Below are positions 44,953-60,273 of a DNA stretch of 64,000 nt, piece after piece. Each line of letters starts with the position of its first letter. Positions within the stretch are counted from its first letter, which is position 1. The DNA comes from Acinetobacter lactucae (lineage in GTDB: Bacteria; Pseudomonadota; Gammaproteobacteria; Pseudomonadales; Moraxellaceae): contig NZ_LRPE01000037.1 in assembly GCF_001605885.1 (NCBI RefSeq), positions 62,001 to 126,000 of the forward strand, written 5' to 3'. Made by a program: the position numbers and the translations under genes. Below the pieces are notes generated by a model. That model saw nothing but the letters and a program-made list of their open reading frames with translations, was not told the DNA's origin and did no database searches.

Positions 44953-45302
44953 ATATAGCCCCTTCCGTTTGATTGAGTGTTGAGGACCGAGCTTGTGGCC
45001 CAGTGCCTACGAACCGATATGCTTAAATAAAACCCTGAGAGTATCGGCTCTCATTGTCTTCCAGTCAACGAAATATCCAGTGATAACGACATTTCGCAGT
45101 GAAATAATACATAATTTAAATCTATTAATAATATTCTTATACCTAACTTAGAGTAATACACACAGCTTTACCAACCTTCTAGGTATAGAACAGTCTTAAA
45201 TTACATGAGATATCTTTCAGAGTTCTGACAATTATTATACTTTTCATTCAAAACAAACTCAAAGATAACGCGTCTTACTATTTCTTAATACCATTAAAAA
45301 AG
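44953..45302. other. 350-base spacer upstream of monomeric icd, with structured leader
   Basis: No gene is visible. Within the 110 bases before the start codon the leftward strand has a hairpin (GAGAG/CTCTC, 45037-45052) whose whole loop is complementary to a downstream hexamer at 45014-45019. The rest is A+T-rich and must hold the icd2 promoter. Confidence 0.5.
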
Positions 45303-45332
45303 AAAAACCGATGTGCAAAACATCGGTTTTTT
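45303..45332 (-). terminator. Terminator of the M61 peptidase gene
   Basis: AAAAACCGATGT pairs with ACATCGGTTTTT around a short GCAAA loop, leftward T run. Located 21 bases past the gene. Confidence 0.85.
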
Positions 45333-45352
45333 ATAAACTATTTAACTATTAT

Positions 45353-47056
45353 TTAAGCTTTTAACCATTTTTCGGTTTTGGCCTGATCTTCAATGACAAG
45401 TTCAACTTCAGTTAAATCAGATGTAGCACACCCAACGTCAAAAGATAGTAACTCATCGCGGCGGAAAGCGAACACTGTATAAGTACCACCCTGCTTTGCA
45501 TACTTCTCAACAAGTTTAGTGGTCGCTTTTAACCCATCAATTGCAATAATTACATCATTAGCAGAAATACCTGCTTTAGCTGCTGCGCCATCACGACGAG
45601 CACTTTGTACGAGTACACCTTCTGGCTTATCAACAAGTTTTAAACCTAGTGGCAAAGATTTGTCAGTTTTAACTCTATAACTTAAGCCAAACTCAGGGAA
45701 CAATTGATCAAGTGGTAACTCATCAGTGGTATTAATCAAATGATTAATTTGTTCAATCCAGCTATCACCCGTCAGTTCTTTACATAAATCAAAAATGGTT
45801 CTTTCATTTACTTGCATACCATTTTGGGTATTTTCATATAACCGACGCATTAAAGCATCAAGACTAGAACCACGTAGACGTAAACCTAAATCTAAACATA
45901 ACGCAACTAACGAACCTTTATTGTAGTAACTGGTGCCCGCATTATTCGAGTTTTCATCTTGACGATAAAATTTAATCCACGCATCAAAACTTGACTCTGC
46001 AACTGTTTGAACAAAACGGCCAGGATTTTGCAAATAACGGTCAATTTGTGCTTTGAGTAAATCAAGATAAGACTTCTGTGAAATCACGCCGCTACGTAAT
46101 AAAATCAAGTCATCATAATATGAAGTAAAGCCTTCAAATATCCAAAGTAAAGAGGTATAGCCTTCTTGATGCAAGTTATAGTTTGCAAAGTTTTCTGGAC
46201 GGATAAACTTGACTAACCATGAATGAAAATATTCATGACTACATAAACCTAAAAAACGTTGATAGTCTTTAGAAGGTTCAGTTGGCTCATTCGACTTTGG
46301 CAAATCGTCACGTGGTGTAATCAAGCTTGTGCTATTGCAATGCTCTAATCCGCCATAACTATTACCTGTTGCCATGGTCATAAAGGTATAGTTTTTAAAT
46401 GGTGCTGAACCGAACATATTTATTTCAGCTGCACAAATTTTTTCAATATCGGCTTTTAGACGATCAATATTAGTATTATGCGAACCAGAAATTACGAACT
46501 CATGTTCAATACCGTTCGTCTCAAAACTAAAGCGTGTTTGATCAGCCAATTCAAATGGACTATCAATCAACTGATCGTAATGATCTGCTTTTAAAGTAAA
46601 TCGACCTTTAACTAAGCTTTTTGAAGCTAAGCCCGTTGCTAATTGAAAATGTTTTAATTCATCTGGCAAGAAAACTTCGACTTCACAAGCAGATTGCTCC
46701 TGCCCTTCTAAAGCCAAACATACACATGCTGGATTAATATATAGACGAGTCTGGTCGACATACGCACCACGTACCGACAAATCATATGCATACACATCAT
46801 ATTCAATCGTCATTAGCTCATGATCTGTATTAAATAAACGCCAGCGATTCTTGCTCGTTTTTTTAATGTCTAGCAAACGACCAGCTTCATCATAAGCTTT
46901 AACGGATTCAATATGTTTTGAGAACTCTCGAATTAGATAACTACCCGGAATCCACGTTGGTAACCAAAGTTCCTGATTTGGATTGGCTAAAAAACGAATT
47001 GTCACGTGAACAAGGTGTTGTTTGTAATCATCGAACTCAATTTGATAATGCAACAT
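45353..47056 (-). CDS. M61 family metallopeptidase (glycyl aminopeptidase type) with PDZ domain
   Basis: This 567-residue peptidase has the M61 layout: an N-terminal beta domain (about 1-170, LPTWIPGSYLIREFSKHIE), a thermolysin-like zinc domain and a C-terminal PDZ domain. The zinc motif HEYFH is at 274-278 with the third ligand Glu308 in WIFEGFTSYYDD; GGLEHCNST (235-243) supplies the substrate-binding exopeptidase motif. PDZ lies at about 460-535 (LVDKPEGVLVQSARRDGAAAKAGI and VIIAIDGLKA). There is no signal peptide, so it is probably cytoplasmic. Members release N-terminal Gly or Ala. Confidence 0.92.
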   Translation of the reverse strand: MLHYQIEFDDYKQHLVHVTIRFLANPNQELWLPTWIPGSYLIREFSKHIESVKAYDEAGRLLDIKKTSKNRWRLFNTDHELMTIEYDVYAYDLSVRGAYVDQTRLYINPACVCLALEGQEQSACEVEVFLPDELKHFQLATGLASKSLVKGRFTLKADHYDQLIDSPFELADQTRFSFETNGIEHEFVISGSHNTNIDRLKADIEKICAAEINMFGSAPFKNYTFMTMATGNSYGGLEHCNSTSLITPRDDLPKSNEPTEPSKDYQRFLGLCSHEYFHSWLVKFIRPENFANYNLHQEGYTSLLWIFEGFTSYYDDLILLRSGVISQKSYLDLLKAQIDRYLQNPGRFVQTVAESSFDAWIKFYRQDENSNNAGTSYYNKGSLVALCLDLGLRLRGSSLDALMRRLYENTQNGMQVNERTIFDLCKELTGDSWIEQINHLINTTDELPLDQLFPEFGLSYRVKTDKSLPLGLKLVDKPEGVLVQSARRDGAAAKAGISANDVIIAIDGLKATTKLVEKYAKQGGTYTVFAFRRDELLSFDVGCATSDLTEVELVIEDQAKTEKWLKA

Positions 47057-52304: not shown

Positions 52305-53054
52305 ATGCAACACCAACAAAAGAACCCTGGAAGAACACTCGTCTTATGGATTATCGCAGCTCATCTATTTATGGGCATAGTGGCCTATGAGTGGTTGCCT
52401 GTAAGTTTTAGAGGAAGCTGGATCTTTATTCTTATTCTTTTAATCTCCGGGGCTTTTTTACAAGTCGGTGCATCTTTAATCGTTGGTTTAATTGCGTTCG
52501 TAGGCGTTGCAGTATATTTCTTACTCGATTTAGGAGCTCAAACTCATATTGAGAGGCAGCTCCTTTTACTTTTCATTATTCCCCTCATTCCACTTTTTCT
52601 CAGTGCTATACGCCACAATATTGAAATTAATGTTCAAAAATATCGCGATATTCAAAGTTATGACCGGAATTATCGCCGTGATATTTTCCCGCTCAGCGCA
52701 CTCAAATATTTTCAACGTAGCTTCTTTAAGCTTCTTGATCATCATCACATACAAGACTATGAAGTCTTTGAAATTAGAATTCTCAACCGAAGCTTAATTA
52801 AAGAAATGTTAGGCGATGATGTTTGGAAAACCACGCAAAATGAGATGATCAAAATTTTAAGCCAACATCATCCACAAGAAATTGTTTTCCAGTTTGCTGA
52901 TGATGATCTTGAAAATATATACAGTATTGTAATTCGCAAGCAGAAAACGGATGAAGATCCAGATTTCATTAAAAAGCTAAAAGAAATTATGACCTTGCGG
53001 CTTGAAGTAGAATACAAAATTATTCAAATTCCACCTGAAGAGGAGATGACTTAA
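52305..53054 (+). CDS. Four-helix membrane protein with degenerate GGDEF-like cytoplasmic domain (exopolysaccharide operon)
   Basis: This 249-residue protein has four membrane helices (about 12-32, 41-62, 64-80, 88-108) and a cytoplasmic part from about 115. That part (LKYFQRSFFKLLDHHH, a YEVFEIRILN strand, SLIKEMLGDDVWKTTQNEMIKIL, then EIVFQFADDDLENIYSIVI) has the strand-helix order of a GGDEF domain, but the GGDEF residues are absent and no RxxD inhibitory site is visible. The layout recalls PelD, the c-di-GMP receptor of the Pel polysaccharide system, without its GAF domain. The match is structural intuition. It opens the rightward exopolysaccharide operon and its stop codon shares a base with the next start. 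Confidence 0.7.
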   Translation: MQHQQKNPGRTLVLWIIAAHLFMGIVAYEWLPVSFRGSWIFILILLISGAFLQVGASLIVGLIAFVGVAVYFLLDLGAQTHIERQLLLLFIIPLIPLFLSAIRHNIEINVQKYRDIQSYDRNYRRDIFPLSALKYFQRSFFKLLDHHHIQDYEVFEIRILNRSLIKEMLGDDVWKTTQNEMIKILSQHHPQEIVFQFADDDLENIYSIVIRKQKTDEDPDFIKKLKEIMTLRLEVEYKIIQIPPEEEMT

Positions 53055-53950
53055 TGTCTAATCTCTTTAATATCTGTGGAATTATTATTGCATCTAGCCA
53101 GTATCCTGATGCCACGTTACAACAGTTTTATCAGCAATATTATCATTGTGAAATTAAAGCAGAACAAACTAAAACAGAAGTTCAAAGTACAGATGACCTT
53201 TCCATGTTTTTCCCCTATCAAGATACATGGTGGCCTGTTTTTACAATTGACCAAATCAGTTCAGATAGTTTCCAACAGCTAATTCATAAAGGAATAAAGC
53301 CCGGCATTATATTACCGGATGAAGTTTTCAGCTTTTCTCATTATTTCTTGCTTAAAGAAGCAGTCAGCCAAGGTGCTATTCCGATTGCACTTTTTAAACC
53401 TGAGCAACCTCAATATTTTGCAGCCAAAGCGACATTTTCGACTGCAATTGGCTTACGGCCACTGGCTGCTTTTGTAAGCAAAGGTTGGGATGAAAATTTA
53501 ATTTCACAACCTGCGGGTAGTTATCTCATTCAATTTAATCCGTCACAGCTTCCTCTACCTTCTAGAGAAATTAAGCAAAAACAGCATTTATTTTATTCAG
53601 TTAAAAGTTTTAATGGCCATATTTCGGGTTATGAAATTATTGTTAATCCTCCTACAGATCTATCGGTAACAAATATTCGATACCCTCAACTCGGCATTTC
53701 TTGGAGGTTTAATAAGATTAATTATGTAAGTACGCCTGAAGAAGTAGAGACGAGCCTGATTGGCTACATTTTCATTGCATTAAGTACGGTTGTAGTTCCA
53801 CTTGATCTTATTTTAACGAGTAATTATCCAAACCTTCTCGGTACATTTGGCAGCTATATTTCTTGGTTTTCACTGGTAGTCGGACTAATTTTATTGTTGT
53901 TACTCATCTCGTCTATTATCAGGAGGGTCCGAAAAAATGGCTCCAATTGA
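53054..53950 (+). CDS. Membrane protein of unknown function (exopolysaccharide operon)
   Basis: I do not recognise this 298-residue protein. It has no signal peptide; two C-terminal membrane helices (about 235-258 and 270-290) follow a soluble N-terminal part of about 230 residues, and it ends in a basic RRVRKNGSN. The soluble part, presumably cytoplasmic, contains alternating strand-helix segments (PGIILPDEVFSF, AIPIALFKPEQPQYF, GLRPLAAFVSKGW). The ATG shares a base with the stop of the first gene, and its end overlaps the GT2 gene by 14 bases, so it is surely translated with them. Its place next to the synthase suggests an assembly or regulatory subunit. Confidence 0.7.
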   Translation: MSNLFNICGIIIASSQYPDATLQQFYQQYYHCEIKAEQTKTEVQSTDDLSMFFPYQDTWWPVFTIDQISSDSFQQLIHKGIKPGIILPDEVFSFSHYFLLKEAVSQGAIPIALFKPEQPQYFAAKATFSTAIGLRPLAAFVSKGWDENLISQPAGSYLIQFNPSQLPLPSREIKQKQHLFYSVKSFNGHISGYEIIVNPPTDLSVTNIRYPQLGISWRFNKINYVSTPEEVETSLIGYIFIALSTVVVPLDLILTSNYPNLLGTFGSYISWFSLVVGLILLLLLISSIIRRVRKNGSN

Positions 53951-55187
53951 TATTCTTTTCTTATTTGGCTTTTTGGGAATTTGGATTCCACAGGCGTTTT
54001 GGGCGTGGCTAAGTTATCAAGCTTGGAAATATTCAAAGACAGCAGAAAAAGAGTTACAAAACCTTCCTATACCAGAGAGATGGCCCGTTTTGAGTGTCTT
54101 GATCCCTGCCTATAATGAGGGCGTTGTGATTGAAGATACTTTGCATGCAATTGCTCAACAAGATTATCCAGCCGAAGCATATGAAGTGTTACTGATTAAT
54201 GATGGGTCAAAGGATAACACACTAGAAATTGCTGAGAATTTGGCACAAATTTATCCTTGTATAAAAATTGTCAATGTTCCTAAAGGCATGGGCGGCAAAG
54301 GTAAATCTAGAACACTTAATAATGGCTTACCTCATGCTAGAGGCGAATTGATTGTTGTCTATGATGCGGACAGTACGCCTGAACCCGATTGTGTCCGCTT
54401 GCTCGCTCAAACCTTGCTTGCCGATAAAAAATTAGTGGCTGTCAATGGAAAAGTAAGAACGCGTAATTGGCAAGACAGTATTTTGACCCGATTTATCGCA
54501 ATCGAATTCATTTTTTTCCAATGGATTTTCCAAGGCGGTCGTTGGCAACGTTTTGAATTATCCACATTAATGGGTACAAACTATGTCATTTGGCGTGATG
54601 CTTTAGAAACCTTAGGTGGCTTTGATGAAAAGTCATTGGTTGATGATACAGAAATGAGTTTTAGGATTTTTATCGGCCAAAAACGAATTAAATGGGTACC
54701 CTATGCGATTGGTTGGCAACAAGATCCACCCTCTTTAAGTGTATTTGTTAAACAGCGCTCACGTTGGACTCAGGGTAACTTTTATGTAACTCGTAAATAT
54801 TTACCCGTAGCATTAAGAACGCCTTTTCCTATCGGAATTGAAATTCTAAATAACATTATGTGCTACATACTTTTTGTACCCGCTTTATTCTGGAGTCATA
54901 TCACTTTAACTCTCGGGTTACTGGATATTGCAGGTATTTCAGTTCCAGGGCCATTTACCACCTTGTGGGGGCTCTCATTTTGCCTATATGTCGCACAAAT
55001 GTGGTTTACCCTTTCACTCGAAAAAGTCAAACCAGAACTCTACTTTTACTCTGTTATATCTTATGTAAGTTACTCACAAATCTTTCTTTTTATTGTATTT
55101 AAAGCCGCATATGACATGCTTAAAAATAAAATTCAGGGTAATTCCCTTCAATGGTATAAAACGGAACGTAGCAAGGAGAAAAAATAA
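53937..55187 (+). CDS. Processive GT2 glycosyltransferase (cellulose/PNAG synthase-like)
   Basis: This 416-residue inner-membrane enzyme has the complete processive GT2 signature: Asp89 in NDGS, DAD with Asp143 and Asp145, a TED-like DDTE at 236-239 and QRSRW at 273-277. An N-terminal helix (about 5-27) and C-terminal helices (about 298-320, 325-375, 380-400) form the polymer channel. BcsA has a C-terminal PilZ and NfrB an MshEN c-di-GMP domain; here neither is present, the protein ending shortly after the last helix. Its substrate is probably a UDP-HexNAc, given the WecB-type epimerase nearby. The start overlaps the previous gene by 14 bases; AGGAGGGTC is a strong ribosome site. Confidence 0.92.
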   Translation: MAPIDILFLFGFLGIWIPQAFWAWLSYQAWKYSKTAEKELQNLPIPERWPVLSVLIPAYNEGVVIEDTLHAIAQQDYPAEAYEVLLINDGSKDNTLEIAENLAQIYPCIKIVNVPKGMGGKGKSRTLNNGLPHARGELIVVYDADSTPEPDCVRLLAQTLLADKKLVAVNGKVRTRNWQDSILTRFIAIEFIFFQWIFQGGRWQRFELSTLMGTNYVIWRDALETLGGFDEKSLVDDTEMSFRIFIGQKRIKWVPYAIGWQQDPPSLSVFVKQRSRWTQGNFYVTRKYLPVALRTPFPIGIEILNNIMCYILFVPALFWSHITLTLGLLDIAGISVPGPFTTLWGLSFCLYVAQMWFTLSLEKVKPELYFYSVISYVSYSQIFLFIVFKAAYDMLKNKIQGNSLQWYKTERSKEKK

Positions 55188-57032
55188 ATGAAAAAGACTT
55201 TTGATATTTATAAAACAGCTCAAGTGCTCCTTGCCAGCACCAGTCTTATGCTCGCCATGTCTACTCATGCCTACACATGGAAATTAGATGATATTAGTAC
55301 CTCAACTAAATATACGGTGGAGCCTCATTTTTTCTATATTGGCAAAGGTGCTCAGTGGCAAAACATTCAATTTTCAAGTGATTACTCAACGGAAAGTGAT
55401 ACAACTTTACTCGTAAAATATGATGATAAACTCATTTATAACACTACGCTAAGTGGTGATGGGCAACTCAAATTTGACATCCCGGTAAGTCAGAGTGGCT
55501 TTCATCGTTTAGATTTTATTATTCAACAATATGCGAAACCCACTACGCTGAATCAAACCAAACAAACATTCTGTACAGAAGATATTGATCACTTAACTTA
55601 TTTAAGTAATTCCCAAATCGACTTTACACCTATTCGCAATGAATACCGGTTAAAAGATTTACCAGATGCTTTATATAACCCACAAGCGAGAAGGCCCACC
55701 CCATTTGTTGGCATTTTAAAATATAACCGTAAAGAGATTATAGAAGCGTCCATGCTCGCTAGATTAGCAAGTTCATGGACCTCAATAACCCCTGTTGAAT
55801 GGGTCGATTCAGGACAAATCAATTTAAATCCTGAAACCAACTTTATTATTGAAGTGATTCGCTCACCGACGCCATTAAAAGGCGGAGCATTAGTACAAAT
55901 CACGAAACCTGTAGACGGTGTGCCTACTCTATCGATTACTTACCATTCCCAACAAGATTTAACGAGTGCAATAAATGGACTAATTAATCCTTCTTATGTA
56001 CAACAATTGAGTACAGGAAACGCAATTTTTCCAAATACGATATCCAATCCCACTTGGGCTCAATTTAAAAAAATTAATACACTTGCCGATTTAGGTATTG
56101 AAGATTTCAGATTAAATCACGCTGAAAAAAACTTATATCTTGATTTTCCTTCGGTATGGCAACCAACCGATATTTTACAAGGACAAATTGCACTTCGTAT
56201 CCAAAGTGGTCTATTAGAAGGTTCTAATATTACGGCTTGGATTGATGGTGGGCTTGCAGGAAGTATGAAAACAGCGGATCTTGCTTCCGATCCAGTAAAC
56301 CGTCAGTTCAATATTTTTGCAAAAACCATTTCTAATACGACAAATTTTAGTCTAAAGCTAGAGAACTCAATCATTGCTAATTCACAGTGTTTACCCACTG
56401 CTCATGGTTCGCTCTGGATTGATACAGCCAAGTCTACTGTAAAGCTACCTCATAAACTCAAAAATGGCGTAGCTGCAATTTCAATGACTTTAGCAACGAC
56501 TCCGACTATTGCGATTGATGATCAATCTGGTGCATTAAATATCGCGATTGTATTAGGTCAAACAGCGAAAAAAATGCTTTTAACCCAAGCACCAATGCCT
56601 CTCAACCTAGTTCGTTATTCGCCTAGTGCACCTCAATCTATAAATGTTCGCGTAAATAAAGATATTTATCAACAACAGGTATTAATGCATCAGGATATTA
56701 TTTATGCACCTGCGGCCCAAAATGGTTTCATTGTCAGTTATAACAATAATCGCTTTGATGTGATTACTGACTCACAAGGCGGTGCACAAGCTTTCATGCA
56801 TCTTTGGGAAAAGATACAGCATAAAATTCCAAACAACGTGACAAAAATGCTAGTTTCAGAAAATGGGAATATCTATGTTTTACAAAAACTCATTGTCGGA
56901 AATCAAAAGGCACCTTTAGTCCAACAATCTTCTTTCTTCTTACTAGTTGTGATTATCTCTGCAATTATGATAATAATTATCTTCTTGTGGTACTGGTTAA
57001 GACGAAATAATGAAAAAACAGATACCAATTAA
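55188..57032 (+). CDS. BcsB-like periplasmic polysaccharide-synthesis protein
   Basis: This 614-residue protein has a signal peptide (TAQVLLASTSLMLAMSTHA), a large periplasmic part and a single C-terminal membrane helix (about 583-604) followed by WYWLRRNNEKTD. The layout and jelly-roll-like strand pattern resemble BcsB, which anchors to the synthase and guides the emerging polymer across the periplasm. Supporting blocks are YIGKGAQWQNIQFSSDY, FHRLDFIIQQYA, and repeated modules near 330-400. It starts directly after the GT2 stop codon with no gap. Sequence similarity is weak to my eye, so confidence rests on architecture and context. Confidence 0.75.
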   Translation: MKKTFDIYKTAQVLLASTSLMLAMSTHAYTWKLDDISTSTKYTVEPHFFYIGKGAQWQNIQFSSDYSTESDTTLLVKYDDKLIYNTTLSGDGQLKFDIPVSQSGFHRLDFIIQQYAKPTTLNQTKQTFCTEDIDHLTYLSNSQIDFTPIRNEYRLKDLPDALYNPQARRPTPFVGILKYNRKEIIEASMLARLASSWTSITPVEWVDSGQINLNPETNFIIEVIRSPTPLKGGALVQITKPVDGVPTLSITYHSQQDLTSAINGLINPSYVQQLSTGNAIFPNTISNPTWAQFKKINTLADLGIEDFRLNHAEKNLYLDFPSVWQPTDILQGQIALRIQSGLLEGSNITAWIDGGLAGSMKTADLASDPVNRQFNIFAKTISNTTNFSLKLENSIIANSQCLPTAHGSLWIDTAKSTVKLPHKLKNGVAAISMTLATTPTIAIDDQSGALNIAIVLGQTAKKMLLTQAPMPLNLVRYSPSAPQSINVRVNKDIYQQQVLMHQDIIYAPAAQNGFIVSYNNNRFDVITDSQGGAQAFMHLWEKIQHKIPNNVTKMLVSENGNIYVLQKLIVGNQKAPLVQQSSFFLLVVIISAIMIIIIFLWYWLRRNNEKTDTN

Positions 57033-57927
57033 AATAGCTGCATTTATTATTTTAATTATATGTAGTGTTGTCGTATATGCGGGGCTTTTCACACATCAAG
57101 GTCAAGCCCCTCATATTGAAGGAATTTTCTGGCAGCCCGACAATAATACAACGCCACCTGAGGGAAATTGGCACTACTTGGGTGTCGATACATTTGTTCC
57201 CCAATGGTCTGTGGTTGAATCTAAATCGTGGTGGAAAGAATCAAATTTTCCTCAATGGGAAAAAGCAATTAATTTAGAAAAAATCAAACAAGAGCCATGG
57301 GCAAAAAACGTTATATTGGGCCTGGCAGGTGAATATAATGAACCTAAAGCTCGAGCTAATGTTATTGAGTTAGGTGAAAAATCTACCCAAATTATAAAAG
57401 AACAAGAAATAGCACCTAAAGGTTATTACTTTCCGGTAGAAGCTGATCCAACTTGGCTACGAGTCAGTGCTTTAGGTCAAGTGTTGTCTAAACTTCCTTC
57501 ACCAGTCTGGGTAAGTATTTATAGTGGCGAAAGTGAGCCTGAAAATTATGATTTGTGGGTTAAAAGCTGGCTACCTGACCATACTGGAGTTTTTTTTCAA
57601 GATGGCGTTGGTGTTGGTGTTCGCTCACCTAAACAAGCCAAACATATTTTGGAACAACTTGAACATAAACTTGGAAAAGACAAAGTAATTATAGTGTTAG
57701 AAGCTTTTAGGGTAAAAAAGAATGGGCAATTTAGAGCCGCATATCCTTGGGAAATTATTTCTCAGCTAAAAGCATATGAAGGCAAAACTGTTTATATTTT
57801 TGATGGTCCTCATTACATGAGCCGCTGGTGCGTTAATATTGTGAGCTTATGGTACCGTCTCACTTATGGTGATAACAAAGCCATAAGTGAGAAAAAATCC
57901 TTAAATCATAATTATGCCAATTCATAA
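57010..57927 (+). CDS. Membrane-anchored TIM-barrel-like protein (possible glycoside hydrolase, DUF4434-like)
   Basis: This 305-residue protein has an N-terminal uncleaved signal-anchor (about 8-25) and a periplasmic domain. Segments such as WHYLGVDTFVPQW, KNVILGLAGEYNEP, KGYYFPVEADPTWL, PSPVWVSIYSGE, GVFFQDGVGVGVRSPKQA and KDKVIIVLEAFRV have the strand order and acidic residues of a TIM-barrel glycosidase, and recall DUF4434 proteins. The catalytic acids cannot be assigned by eye. It overlaps the BcsB-like gene by 23 bases and its last 16 bases overlap the convergent epimerase gene. A hydrolase in a polymer operon may trim or release chains, as BcsZ does. Confidence 0.7.
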   Translation: MKKQIPIKIAAFIILIICSVVVYAGLFTHQGQAPHIEGIFWQPDNNTTPPEGNWHYLGVDTFVPQWSVVESKSWWKESNFPQWEKAINLEKIKQEPWAKNVILGLAGEYNEPKARANVIELGEKSTQIIKEQEIAPKGYYFPVEADPTWLRVSALGQVLSKLPSPVWVSIYSGESEPENYDLWVKSWLPDHTGVFFQDGVGVGVRSPKQAKHILEQLEHKLGKDKVIIVLEAFRVKKNGQFRAAYPWEIISQLKAYEGKTVYIFDGPHYMSRWCVNIVSLWYRLTYGDNKAISEKKSLNHNYANS

Positions 57928-59054
57928 GATTTAGCAATTTGATCGAGAATACGTTGAGCAGCTTGCCCATCACCAAATGGGTTTTCTACATGTGCCATTT
58001 TCTCATAGTGCTGTTGGTCAGTGAGTAGCTTTTCAGCTTCTTGAATAATTTTTTGTTGGTTTGTCCCCACTAAAACACCTGCTCCAACTTCAACAACTTC
58101 AGGCCGCTCTGTAGTATCTCGTAAGATTAAAACTGGCTTATTAAATGATGGGCTTTCTTCTTGTAAACCACCCGAATCTGTCAAAATAAAAGTAGATCGG
58201 TCTATGACTGCCAATAAACTAGGATAGTCTAATGGTTTAACAAGATGGATCTGCGAATGATCTTTAAACTTATCATGAACCACATTATGTACGGCTGGGT
58301 TTAAATGCACTGGCCAAATAAAATGTAAATCAGGATGATCTTGAGCTAGATGCTCAACCGCATTGCAAATATTTTGAATTCCACCGCCAAAGTTTTCACG
58401 ACGATGGGCAGTAATGAGTACAACTTTGTCATCTTGCTTTAGTTGAATTCCATAAGGTTCAAGCTGGTTCTTCAAATCAGATTTTTCGGAAATTAACTTA
58501 CGTCCTAAATACACCGCATCAACGACTGTATTGCCTGTAACAGTAATGAGTTCCTGTGGAATTTGTTCATTGAGTAAATTTCTTTTTGATTGTTCAGTCG
58601 GAGCAAAATGCCATTTGGTAATACGTGAAACTAACTGACGATTGCCCTCTTCGGGAAAAGGATGATCTAAATCATAAGAACGTAAACCAGCTTCAACATG
58701 TGCAACAGGAACTTTCATTGAAAAAGCTACCAAGCCAGCGGCCAAAACAGTTGTTGTGTCCCCCTGAATAACAATTGCATCTCTTTTTTGTCCATCAGTG
58801 TATACACTCTCGATTTGGCTCAAACCATGAATTAATAGCTGGTTTAAACTTTGTCCCGCATTCATAATTTTAAGACGGTGGTCAATTTCAACCCCAAAGA
58901 AATCTATCGCATCTCTTACTAGTTCGTCATGTTGCCCAGTAAAAATCACCTCAACTTGAAAGCGAGGATCTTGTTTTGCCAATAAAATAACAGGAGCAAG
59001 TTTGATTAATTCAGGACGAGTTCCAAATACAATAGATATAAAAACTTTCTTCAT
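57912..59054 (-). CDS. wecB: UDP-N-acetylglucosamine 2-epimerase (non-hydrolysing)
   Basis: WecB interconverts UDP-GlcNAc and UDP-ManNAc. The 380-residue protein keeps the catalytic set of E. coli WecB: Glu121 in HVEAGLRS, Glu135 in PFPEEGNR and His217 in TAHRRENFG, plus TGQHDELV, VTGNTVVDAV and SGGLQEESP. It is one base downstream of the NfrA-like gene on the same strand, so the two are co-transcribed. In E. coli the NfrA/NfrB glycan system needs WecB; this link supports the locus model. A role in capsule or another glycan cannot be ruled out, as wecB-type genes are common in those loci. Confidence 0.92.
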   Translation of the reverse strand: MKKVFISIVFGTRPELIKLAPVILLAKQDPRFQVEVIFTGQHDELVRDAIDFFGVEIDHRLKIMNAGQSLNQLLIHGLSQIESVYTDGQKRDAIVIQGDTTTVLAAGLVAFSMKVPVAHVEAGLRSYDLDHPFPEEGNRQLVSRITKWHFAPTEQSKRNLLNEQIPQELITVTGNTVVDAVYLGRKLISEKSDLKNQLEPYGIQLKQDDKVVLITAHRRENFGGGIQNICNAVEHLAQDHPDLHFIWPVHLNPAVHNVVHDKFKDHSQIHLVKPLDYPSLLAVIDRSTFILTDSGGLQEESPSFNKPVLILRDTTERPEVVEVGAGVLVGTNQQKIIQEAEKLLTDQQHYEKMAHVENPFGDGQAAQRILDQIAKSYELA

Positions 59055-59055
59055 T

Positions 59056-60273
59056 TTAAAAATCCTTATAAAAAACGAGTTCTACTCGAGTATTGTTGTA
59101 ATGATCTTTCGTATTTACTGGCACATCTTTAAAGTAATTGCCATATAATCGTTCTACACGTAATTTTATAGGTTGATAATTAAAAGGCTGCCATGAAATA
59201 CCTGGACCATATTCAAATAAATTATTGTAATATTCATCTTTAGTATCAGCTAAACCATGTAATTTCAAATAAGCCTGTACAGTGCCCGCTTCTCCTTTAT
59301 AGACATTCAAACCCGTGCGTAATCTCAAATCACCAATAACGTTATAATCTTCTCTAGAATAAGTTGCTGCATTGCCATATAAATCAGTGAAGTAATCATT
59401 AAAGCAAAGTGACTGATTACAACTATTTTGAGAATACCACTCTTGATAACCTGTCACTCCACCGACAACACTTTCACGAAATTTATCTCTATTTCGATCA
59501 ATCAAATCGTAACTTCCCCCCACTTCTAAATACATGCGCACTGGTATAGAAGTCCAAGGCTGATAATTAGCGCCCACACCTAGAGTTACTGCATTTTCAT
59601 CAATAATTTCAGGTCGTACACCGCCCTGAGATTGAGTATCGCGGTTTAAATTTAAAAAGCCATACACCTGTGCTCGGCCATTATCGAGGTTCTTACCATA
59701 ACGGGCTTTAAGTGGGAAAATTACATCGTCATAACGTGACTCATATGAAGGCGCAAAATAAACATCTCGGAAATAAGTCTTGACTTCCCCTCCACTTAGA
59801 TTTTTTACAGCCTGTGTCGCTTTAGTGGCAATATCAGCATCTTTTGATTGTGTAAGCTCCTTAAAAACCACTAAAGCCTCTTTATTATTTTTTTGAGAAT
59901 TGAGCAAATAGGCTTCTTGTAATTTTAAATTATCATCTGCTGGGTCCAATGCCTCTGCTTTTCTTAAACTTTGTAAAGCTGCTTCTTGTTTCCCCATCCT
60001 AATCTGCAAATAAGTTAGACTTTTCCAGACTTTAATATCTTGTGGTGTCATCTCTCCAAGTTCTAATAATAACTTCTCGGCATTTTCAGGTTGAGTTTTC
60101 TCAATTTTATAAAATTGGTCCCATTTATCATAAATCGGATTACCCGGTTTATAGTCTTGATTCACAATCTCTTGCGCAAATGTAGTCTCAATACTTAACA
60201 GGCTTAAAGCTGGACAGATCGAACCAATAACGATAAAAGAACGGGTTAGAGATTTTATTGTTTTGCTATTCAT
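59056..60273 (-). CDS. NfrA-like outer-membrane protein with TPR repeats (polysaccharide export)
   Basis: This 405-residue protein has a signal peptide (SFIVIGSICPALSLLSIETTFAQ), TPR-like helices (about 60-160: ENAEKLLLELGEMTPQDIKVWKSL, AALQSLRKAEALDPADDN) and a C-terminal beta-barrel-like part rich in aromatic alternating strands, ending in Phe (VFYKDF), the classic outer-membrane signal. It resembles the C-terminal region of NfrA, the phage N4 receptor and glycan exporter of E. coli, though it is much shorter than NfrA. BcsC and PgaA share the TPR-barrel logic. It heads the leftward operon with wecB. The spacer upstream, shared with the VIT gene, holds its promoter. Confidence 0.82.
   Translation of the reverse strand: MNSKTIKSLTRSFIVIGSICPALSLLSIETTFAQEIVNQDYKPGNPIYDKWDQFYKIEKTQPENAEKLLLELGEMTPQDIKVWKSLTYLQIRMGKQEAALQSLRKAEALDPADDNLKLQEAYLLNSQKNNKEALVVFKELTQSKDADIATKATQAVKNLSGGEVKTYFRDVYFAPSYESRYDDVIFPLKARYGKNLDNGRAQVYGFLNLNRDTQSQGGVRPEIIDENAVTLGVGANYQPWTSIPVRMYLEVGGSYDLIDRNRDKFRESVVGGVTGYQEWYSQNSCNQSLCFNDYFTDLYGNAATYSREDYNVIGDLRLRTGLNVYKGEAGTVQAYLKLHGLADTKDEYYNNLFEYGPGISWQPFNYQPIKLRVERLYGNYFKDVPVNTKDHYNNTRVELVFYKDF

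Follow-up and report, generated by a model that had tools for sequence, protein, structure and literature searches.

The seven genes at positions 52305-60273 of a 64,000-nucleotide window from Acinetobacter lactucae (contig NZ_LRPE01000037.1; "the window" is this whole stretch of analysed DNA) very probably form the PGR ("phage glycan receptor") locus, pgrABCDE and pgrFG, including the proposed machinery for a polymer containing N-acetylmannosamine (ManNAc). We put the probability of this reading at close to nine in ten. The PGR system is already known; the additions here are a probable dependency on wecB, suggested by comparing the locus across Acinetobacter, and the assignment of PgrE to the YbcH family. 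The genes, all recognised as open frames, are the following:

pgrA: 52305..53054, plus strand
pgrB: 53054..53950, plus strand
pgrC: 53937..55187, plus strand
pgrD: 55188..57032, plus strand
pgrE: 57010..57927, plus strand
pgrF: 57912..59054, minus strand (read 59054-57912)
pgrG: 59056..60273, minus strand (read 60273-59056), 5' of pgrF

The PGR locus of A. baumannii, pgrA–pgrG, was described in September 2025 as phage receptor machinery (PMC12507263). According to the main text of that paper, resistance to phage StAb3 arises from insertions in pgrD or from a point mutation in pgrF, and a clean pgrD deletion in A. baumannii MC47.2 abolishes StAb3 adsorption (PMC12507263). The glycan, reported to be the receptor of broad-range A. 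baumannii phages, is there called uncharacterised; of the 994 complete genomes of A. baumannii, 958 had at least part of the locus, with enrichment in the calcoaceticus-baumannii complex (PMC12507263). The phrase "phage glycan receptor", together with Acinetobacter, occurs in this paper and in a review (PMC13018119). The window genes match the seven-part description in order, with the PgrA fold and the PgrG barrel taken from the main text of the paper (PMC12507263); all seven predicted functions and the letter order A-G are common to both loci, the difference being that the window comes from another genome of the calcoaceticus-baumannii group. An initial annotation of this DNA knew of no described system with exactly this gene order, a statement overtaken by the 2025 description. 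The annotation's model of a GT2 synthase, a BcsB-like guide, a TIM-barrel protein, a source of UDP-ManNAc and an outer-membrane exporter holds, and comes near the PGR model in that text (PMC12507263).

The convergent arrangement that the annotation had described is likewise present, as seven open frames that fill the interval in one unit of five genes (plus strand) and one of two (minus strand). Neighbours within a unit overlap by 1-23 bases or are separated by gaps of 0-1 base, and the 3' ends of pgrE and pgrF overlap by 16 bases. Such tight spacing argues for pgrABCDE and pgrFG being transcribed as two units; scans for promoters and terminators stayed at or near the level of shuffled sequence (28 vs 30.8 and 9 vs 6.2, respectively), with nothing clear above the shuffles. 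Across Acinetobacter, the first 40 loci fetched all have pgrABCDE and pgrFG in this arrangement, except for missing copies of pgrF and two split copies of pgrD.

In the proposed mechanism, PgrF would convert UDP-N-acetylglucosamine (UDP-GlcNAc) to UDP-ManNAc, and PgrC would polymerise a ManNAc-containing chain and thread it through the inner membrane. PgrD would guide the chain in the periplasm, where PgrE may bind, trim or hydrolyse it, and PgrG would carry it across the outer membrane. The soluble parts of PgrA and PgrB are predicted to lie in the cytoplasm beside the synthase, and both proteins probably have a control role. The polymer composition, the order of the steps and the roles of PgrA, PgrB and PgrE are inferred.

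The comparison of genomes bears on the first of these steps. Of 175 Acinetobacter genomes, 53 carry pgrD, represented by the window and 52 further loci that were fetched. Among these 53, 37 have an intact pgrF, 15 have none or only a remnant of it, and one has a copy broken by a stop. Missing or remnant copies were already apparent in 12 of the first 40 loci, where pgrE and pgrG lie close together; across the 15 genomes, the ends of these two genes are -4 to 98 bases apart. Since pgrF tracked the locus by descent (correlation of pgrF and locus distances, 0.99 over 37), its absence is best read as loss. A whole-genome search with PgrF recovered another wecB, with E values of 1e-92 to 1e-106, in 16/16 genomes without an intact pgrF (hereafter F-less), as against 6/37 genomes with pgrD and an intact pgrF (Fisher p 5e-9) and 27/122 genomes without pgrD (p 8e-10). 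Between genomes with an intact pgrF and those without pgrD there is no difference (p 0.50). Weaker epimerase matches, at E 1e-31 to 1e-38, were excluded from the count of backup copies; of the genomes without pgrD, 29/122 gave a match at 1e-30, two of these being too weak for inclusion.

Could shared ancestry or a general richness in capsule genes, rather than a need for UDP-ManNAc, account for this link? At least 12 of the 16 F-less species do cluster in a single region of the locus tree. Even so, nine separate F-less clades were counted on that tree (the locus tree, not the species tree), a number unchanged after nodes with support below 0.8 were collapsed, and the sequences of the E-G junction differ between lineages, genome G166 keeping a remnant of pgrF. 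Counted by clade, the contrast is 9/9 vs 6/37 (p 4.5e-6), and a trait simulated on the locus tree independently of pgrF reached 16/16 in 1 of 200,000 runs. The backup copies of G098 and G172, which belong to a single F-less clade, are only 58% identical. As for capsule richness, the control protein TviB, a capsule-type UDP-sugar dehydrogenase (E<=1e-120), is if anything rarer in F-less genomes (9/16 vs 31/37 with intact pgrF, p 0.04). Shared ancestry was rejected as the cause of the pattern on the strength of the nine clades, the junctions, the divergence of the backups, the simulation and the TviB control, and this explanation as a whole has very little chance of being right.

The surroundings of the backup genes point to where the substrate may come from. 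The fetched flanks of all 16 copies in F-less genomes contain one or more capsule-type or UDP-sugar markers, namely wza/wzc/fkpA or itr/galU in 12 and only wecC/TviB-type dehydrogenases in 4; among the six backups of genomes with an intact pgrF, that of G068 is without any of these markers. One backup region, read gene by gene, is capsule-like, with FKBP genes, wzc and wza followed by wecB, tviB and tviC. Genes named mnaA have been described in the K loci of A. baumannii (PMC9676051). The genome of the window carries a second wecB of its own (L090; G000 contig C10, ~45200-46324) near itr-like, galU and ugd-like genes, and its pgrF would therefore be dispensable under the model. F-less loci go unmentioned in the consulted main text of PMC12507263, although its supplements S5-S7 may show them. 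Together, these comparisons support the conclusion that genomes retain the PGR locus only when they also encode a WecB, whether in the locus or elsewhere. The pattern also supports UDP-ManNAc as a PGR precursor, adding independent comparative support for a ManNAc-containing polymer, and suggests that F-less species draw on other sugar loci, often that of the capsule, to make it.

Among the protein labels of the initial annotation, those borne out include GT2 synthase for PgrC (Pfam E 2.8e-31), BcsB-like for PgrD (a fold match, Foldseek E 5.5e-25) and WecB for PgrF (TIGR00236, 438.8 bits, cut-off 210.15). PgrF is accordingly named as a predicted non-hydrolysing UDP-GlcNAc 2-epimerase and source of UDP-ManNAc. 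PgrC is of the processive type; apart from noise, its Pfam and NCBIfam matches are all GT2 families, and its DAD, DDTE and QRSRW motifs are invariant in 52/52 sequences, one sequence with a premature stop having been left out of the alignment. Neither a PilZ nor an MshEN domain is among the Pfam and NCBIfam matches of this 416-aa protein. PgrD is a periplasmic subunit with a C-terminal membrane helix, and its AlphaFold2 model (predicted local distance difference test score, pLDDT, 77.3) aligns with BcsB in VIA-align at Z 21.3 and 4.5 Å over 483 residues with ~11% identity, which gives PgrD, as modelled, the BcsB fold over its full length. The BcsB Pfam model matched none of 27 PgrD homologues, and the profile comparison with BcsB (E 0.0096, 4.3%) was only suggestive; the fold decided.

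The BcsB fold of PgrD raises the question of whether the locus is a variant cellulose or poly-N-acetylglucosamine (PNAG) synthase that makes either of these polymers. As in the BcsA-BcsB cellulose synthase, a GT2 synthase adjoins a subunit that combines the BcsB fold and a C-terminal membrane helix, and the best NCBIfam score of PgrC is to PgaC, although at 143 bits it stays far below the cut-off of 422; the CelA equivalog scores 75 against a cut-off of 699. Against such a variant stand the wecB gene in the locus, which no pgrD-carrying genome lacks unless it has another copy, and two PgaB/PgaC-like pairs of deacetylase and GT2 synthase elsewhere in the genome. The seven genes, moreover, include no PilZ, BcsZ or BcsC, and PgrD has ~11% identity to BcsB in the structural alignment given above. 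A cellulose or PNAG variant was rejected on the first three of these grounds and is scarcely credible. The PgaB/PgaC-like pairs themselves, L002/L152 and L003/L142, lie on contigs C1 and C13 of the window's own genome and consist of deacetylase-domain frames of 612 and 673 aa, each with a GT2 synthase.

PgrE provides the second addition to the known system. Compared with a YbcH profile built from three sequences, it matched at 98.9% probability (E 3.6e-17) over nearly its full length, while a PgaB profile of eight sequences gave 0.2% and no sequence match. The main text of PMC12507263 describes PgrE as structurally related to the C-terminal domain of PgaB. DUF4434 stayed below the cut-off in PgrE of the window and was matched at E<=0.1 in 23/27 homologues; a PgrE profile run against PDB sequences returned two chance-level matches only. 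Residues E111, E144, D146, D198, E231, E248, D265 and H268 are invariant in 53/53 sequences, and these acidic and histidine positions would fit an active enzyme. Many other species carry a lipobox-like GGC that PgrE of the window's group, a membrane-anchored protein, does not (alignment A5, columns 30-45); the mode of anchoring thus seems to have changed.

PgrG has a signal peptide (by reading), TPRs at ~58-160, with all TPR matches below the Pfam cut-offs, and a presumed outer-membrane barrel at ~170-405 whose C-terminal Phe (F405) is invariant in 27 homologues; such a barrel is also proposed in the main text of PMC12507263. No NfrA_C match was found in Pfam, the profile comparison with a single NfrA sequence gave 1.0% probability, a search of the PgrG profile against one PgaA sequence gave nothing, and only TPR proteins came to the top among PDB sequences. 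What survives of the earlier "NfrA-like" label is therefore the weak TPR region and the presumed barrel, with nothing further by sequence.

With PgrE as a YbcH homologue, it has to be asked whether the locus is simply a variant of the Escherichia coli Nfr system, which makes the NGR glycan by means of NfrB, NfrA, YbcH and WecB (PMC8669469, PMC8669472). Both systems have a YbcH-family protein, a GT2 synthase and a TPR/outer-membrane exporter, both need WecB, and both polymers are phage receptors, so far as the texts consulted describe them (PMC8669469, PMC8669472, PMC12507263). They part, however, at several components. PgrC is without a detected MshEN domain for cyclic diguanylate (c-di-GMP) and has 416 aa vs 745; PgrG has 405 aa vs 990 and no profile match to NfrA; and wecB lies inside the PGR locus. 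The BcsB-fold subunit has no counterpart named for NfrB, NfrA or YbcH, the word "BcsB" being absent from the consulted text of PMC8669469, and PgrA and PgrB are likewise without a counterpart in the Nfr descriptions there and in PMC8669472. An Nfr variant is thus an unlikely account of the locus, if not quite so remote as a cellulose or PNAG synthase, and the PGR locus remains the preferred identification. The "hybrid" label given earlier to this gene set is fair, since it shares the BcsB fold with cellulose systems and, with Nfr, both a YbcH-family protein and a requirement for WecB.

PgrA and PgrB may supply the control that the synthase appears to lack. PgrA has ~four membrane helices (by reading) and a C-terminal domain, presumably cytoplasmic. 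The initial annotation had seen a four-helix protein with a degenerate GGDEF-like tail; the helices stood, and no sequence link to GGDEF was found. Pfam and NCBIfam gave no family match, the stretch expected to hold the GGDEF motif is not conserved across 27 homologues, and a PgrA profile found nothing among nine GGDEF domains of its own genome. In the main text of PMC12507263, PgrA is reported to resemble a diguanylate cyclase in structure while lacking the GGDEF motif, and PgrB is not named there. PgrB consists of a soluble alpha/beta domain (~1-230) followed by two membrane helices. Four of its last ten residues are K or R and the loop between the helices has none; because this charged tail follows two membrane helices, the soluble domain is predicted from the positive-inside rule to face the cytoplasm. 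In VIA-align, the soluble part of its AlphaFold2 model (pLDDT 85.6) was closest to a polysaccharide deacetylase (best Z 9.4; PgaB N-domain, Z 6.3). Foldseek returned nothing at E<=0.001, a PgrB profile did not match any of 17 CE4 domains, and PgrA, PgrB and PgrD profiles gave 0 matches at E<=1 among PDB sequences. The His motif of CE4 enzymes looks absent by eye. A possible reading of the model, and a lead only, is that PgrB is an inactive relative of polysaccharide deacetylases. The two proteins are probably regulatory, replacing the c-di-GMP-binding PilZ and MshEN domains absent from PgrC.

Several points weigh against the identification as a PGR locus with the mechanism set out above. Identity to the published pgr genes is judged by order and family, and no A. 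baumannii is among the eight named loci; no chemical structure of the PGR polymer was found in the literature consulted. The roles given to PgrA and PgrB are proposed ones. With single E. coli queries, YbcH matched 2/143 and BcsB 6/143 class-level genomes, the window's own genome being among neither set. The epimerase activity of the backup wecB copies is predicted from sequence, and G166, one of the 16 F-less genomes, has a split pgrD and is not informative by itself (15/15 when it is set aside). Finally, some loci are not functional: G014 has a stop in pgrC, G085 a disrupted pgrD and G166 a split pgrD (L042, L066, L067).

These natural breaks in G014, G085 and G166 recall the phage-escape mutations and locus disruptions reported in A. 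baumannii. Beyond the genus, a pgrD profile search of an order-level sample was positive in 1/390 genomes, namely the window's own. Among named records, pgrD occurs at 88-95% identity in A. pittii (2), A. nosocomialis (2), A. calcoaceticus (2), A. lactucae and Acinetobacter sp. WC-141; the nearest relative of the window's copy is at 96% in another Acinetobacter genome, and at 95% in A. pittii among the named records. The genomes that probably correspond to the named records have the complete set of seven, G014 with its stop in pgrC. Photolyase, FKBP and VIT-family genes flank most loci of the nearer species and are not found around those of more distant ones. In G170 (L063), the interval from pgrE to pgrG exceeds that of the closest relatives by ~860 bases. 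A PHROGs search with five of the proteins gave a best match of only E 0.06.

The YbcH assignment joins the Acinetobacter PGR and E. coli Nfr systems at a further component. A broader picture, which we consider an even bet, is that the PGR glycan in many Acinetobacter species has lost its own precursor enzyme and is fed by the UDP-ManNAc of another locus, often that of the capsule, and that an inactive cyclase (PgrA) and an inactive deacetylase fold (PgrB) act as paired control parts in the cytoplasm instead of a c-di-GMP domain. If this is true, capsule switching would turn a phage-receptor glycan on or off, and strains with a wecB (mnaA) in the capsule locus, including that of the window, could not escape StAb3-like phages through pgrF mutation. 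The other sugar loci of a strain would then predict whether loss of pgrF removes the receptor.

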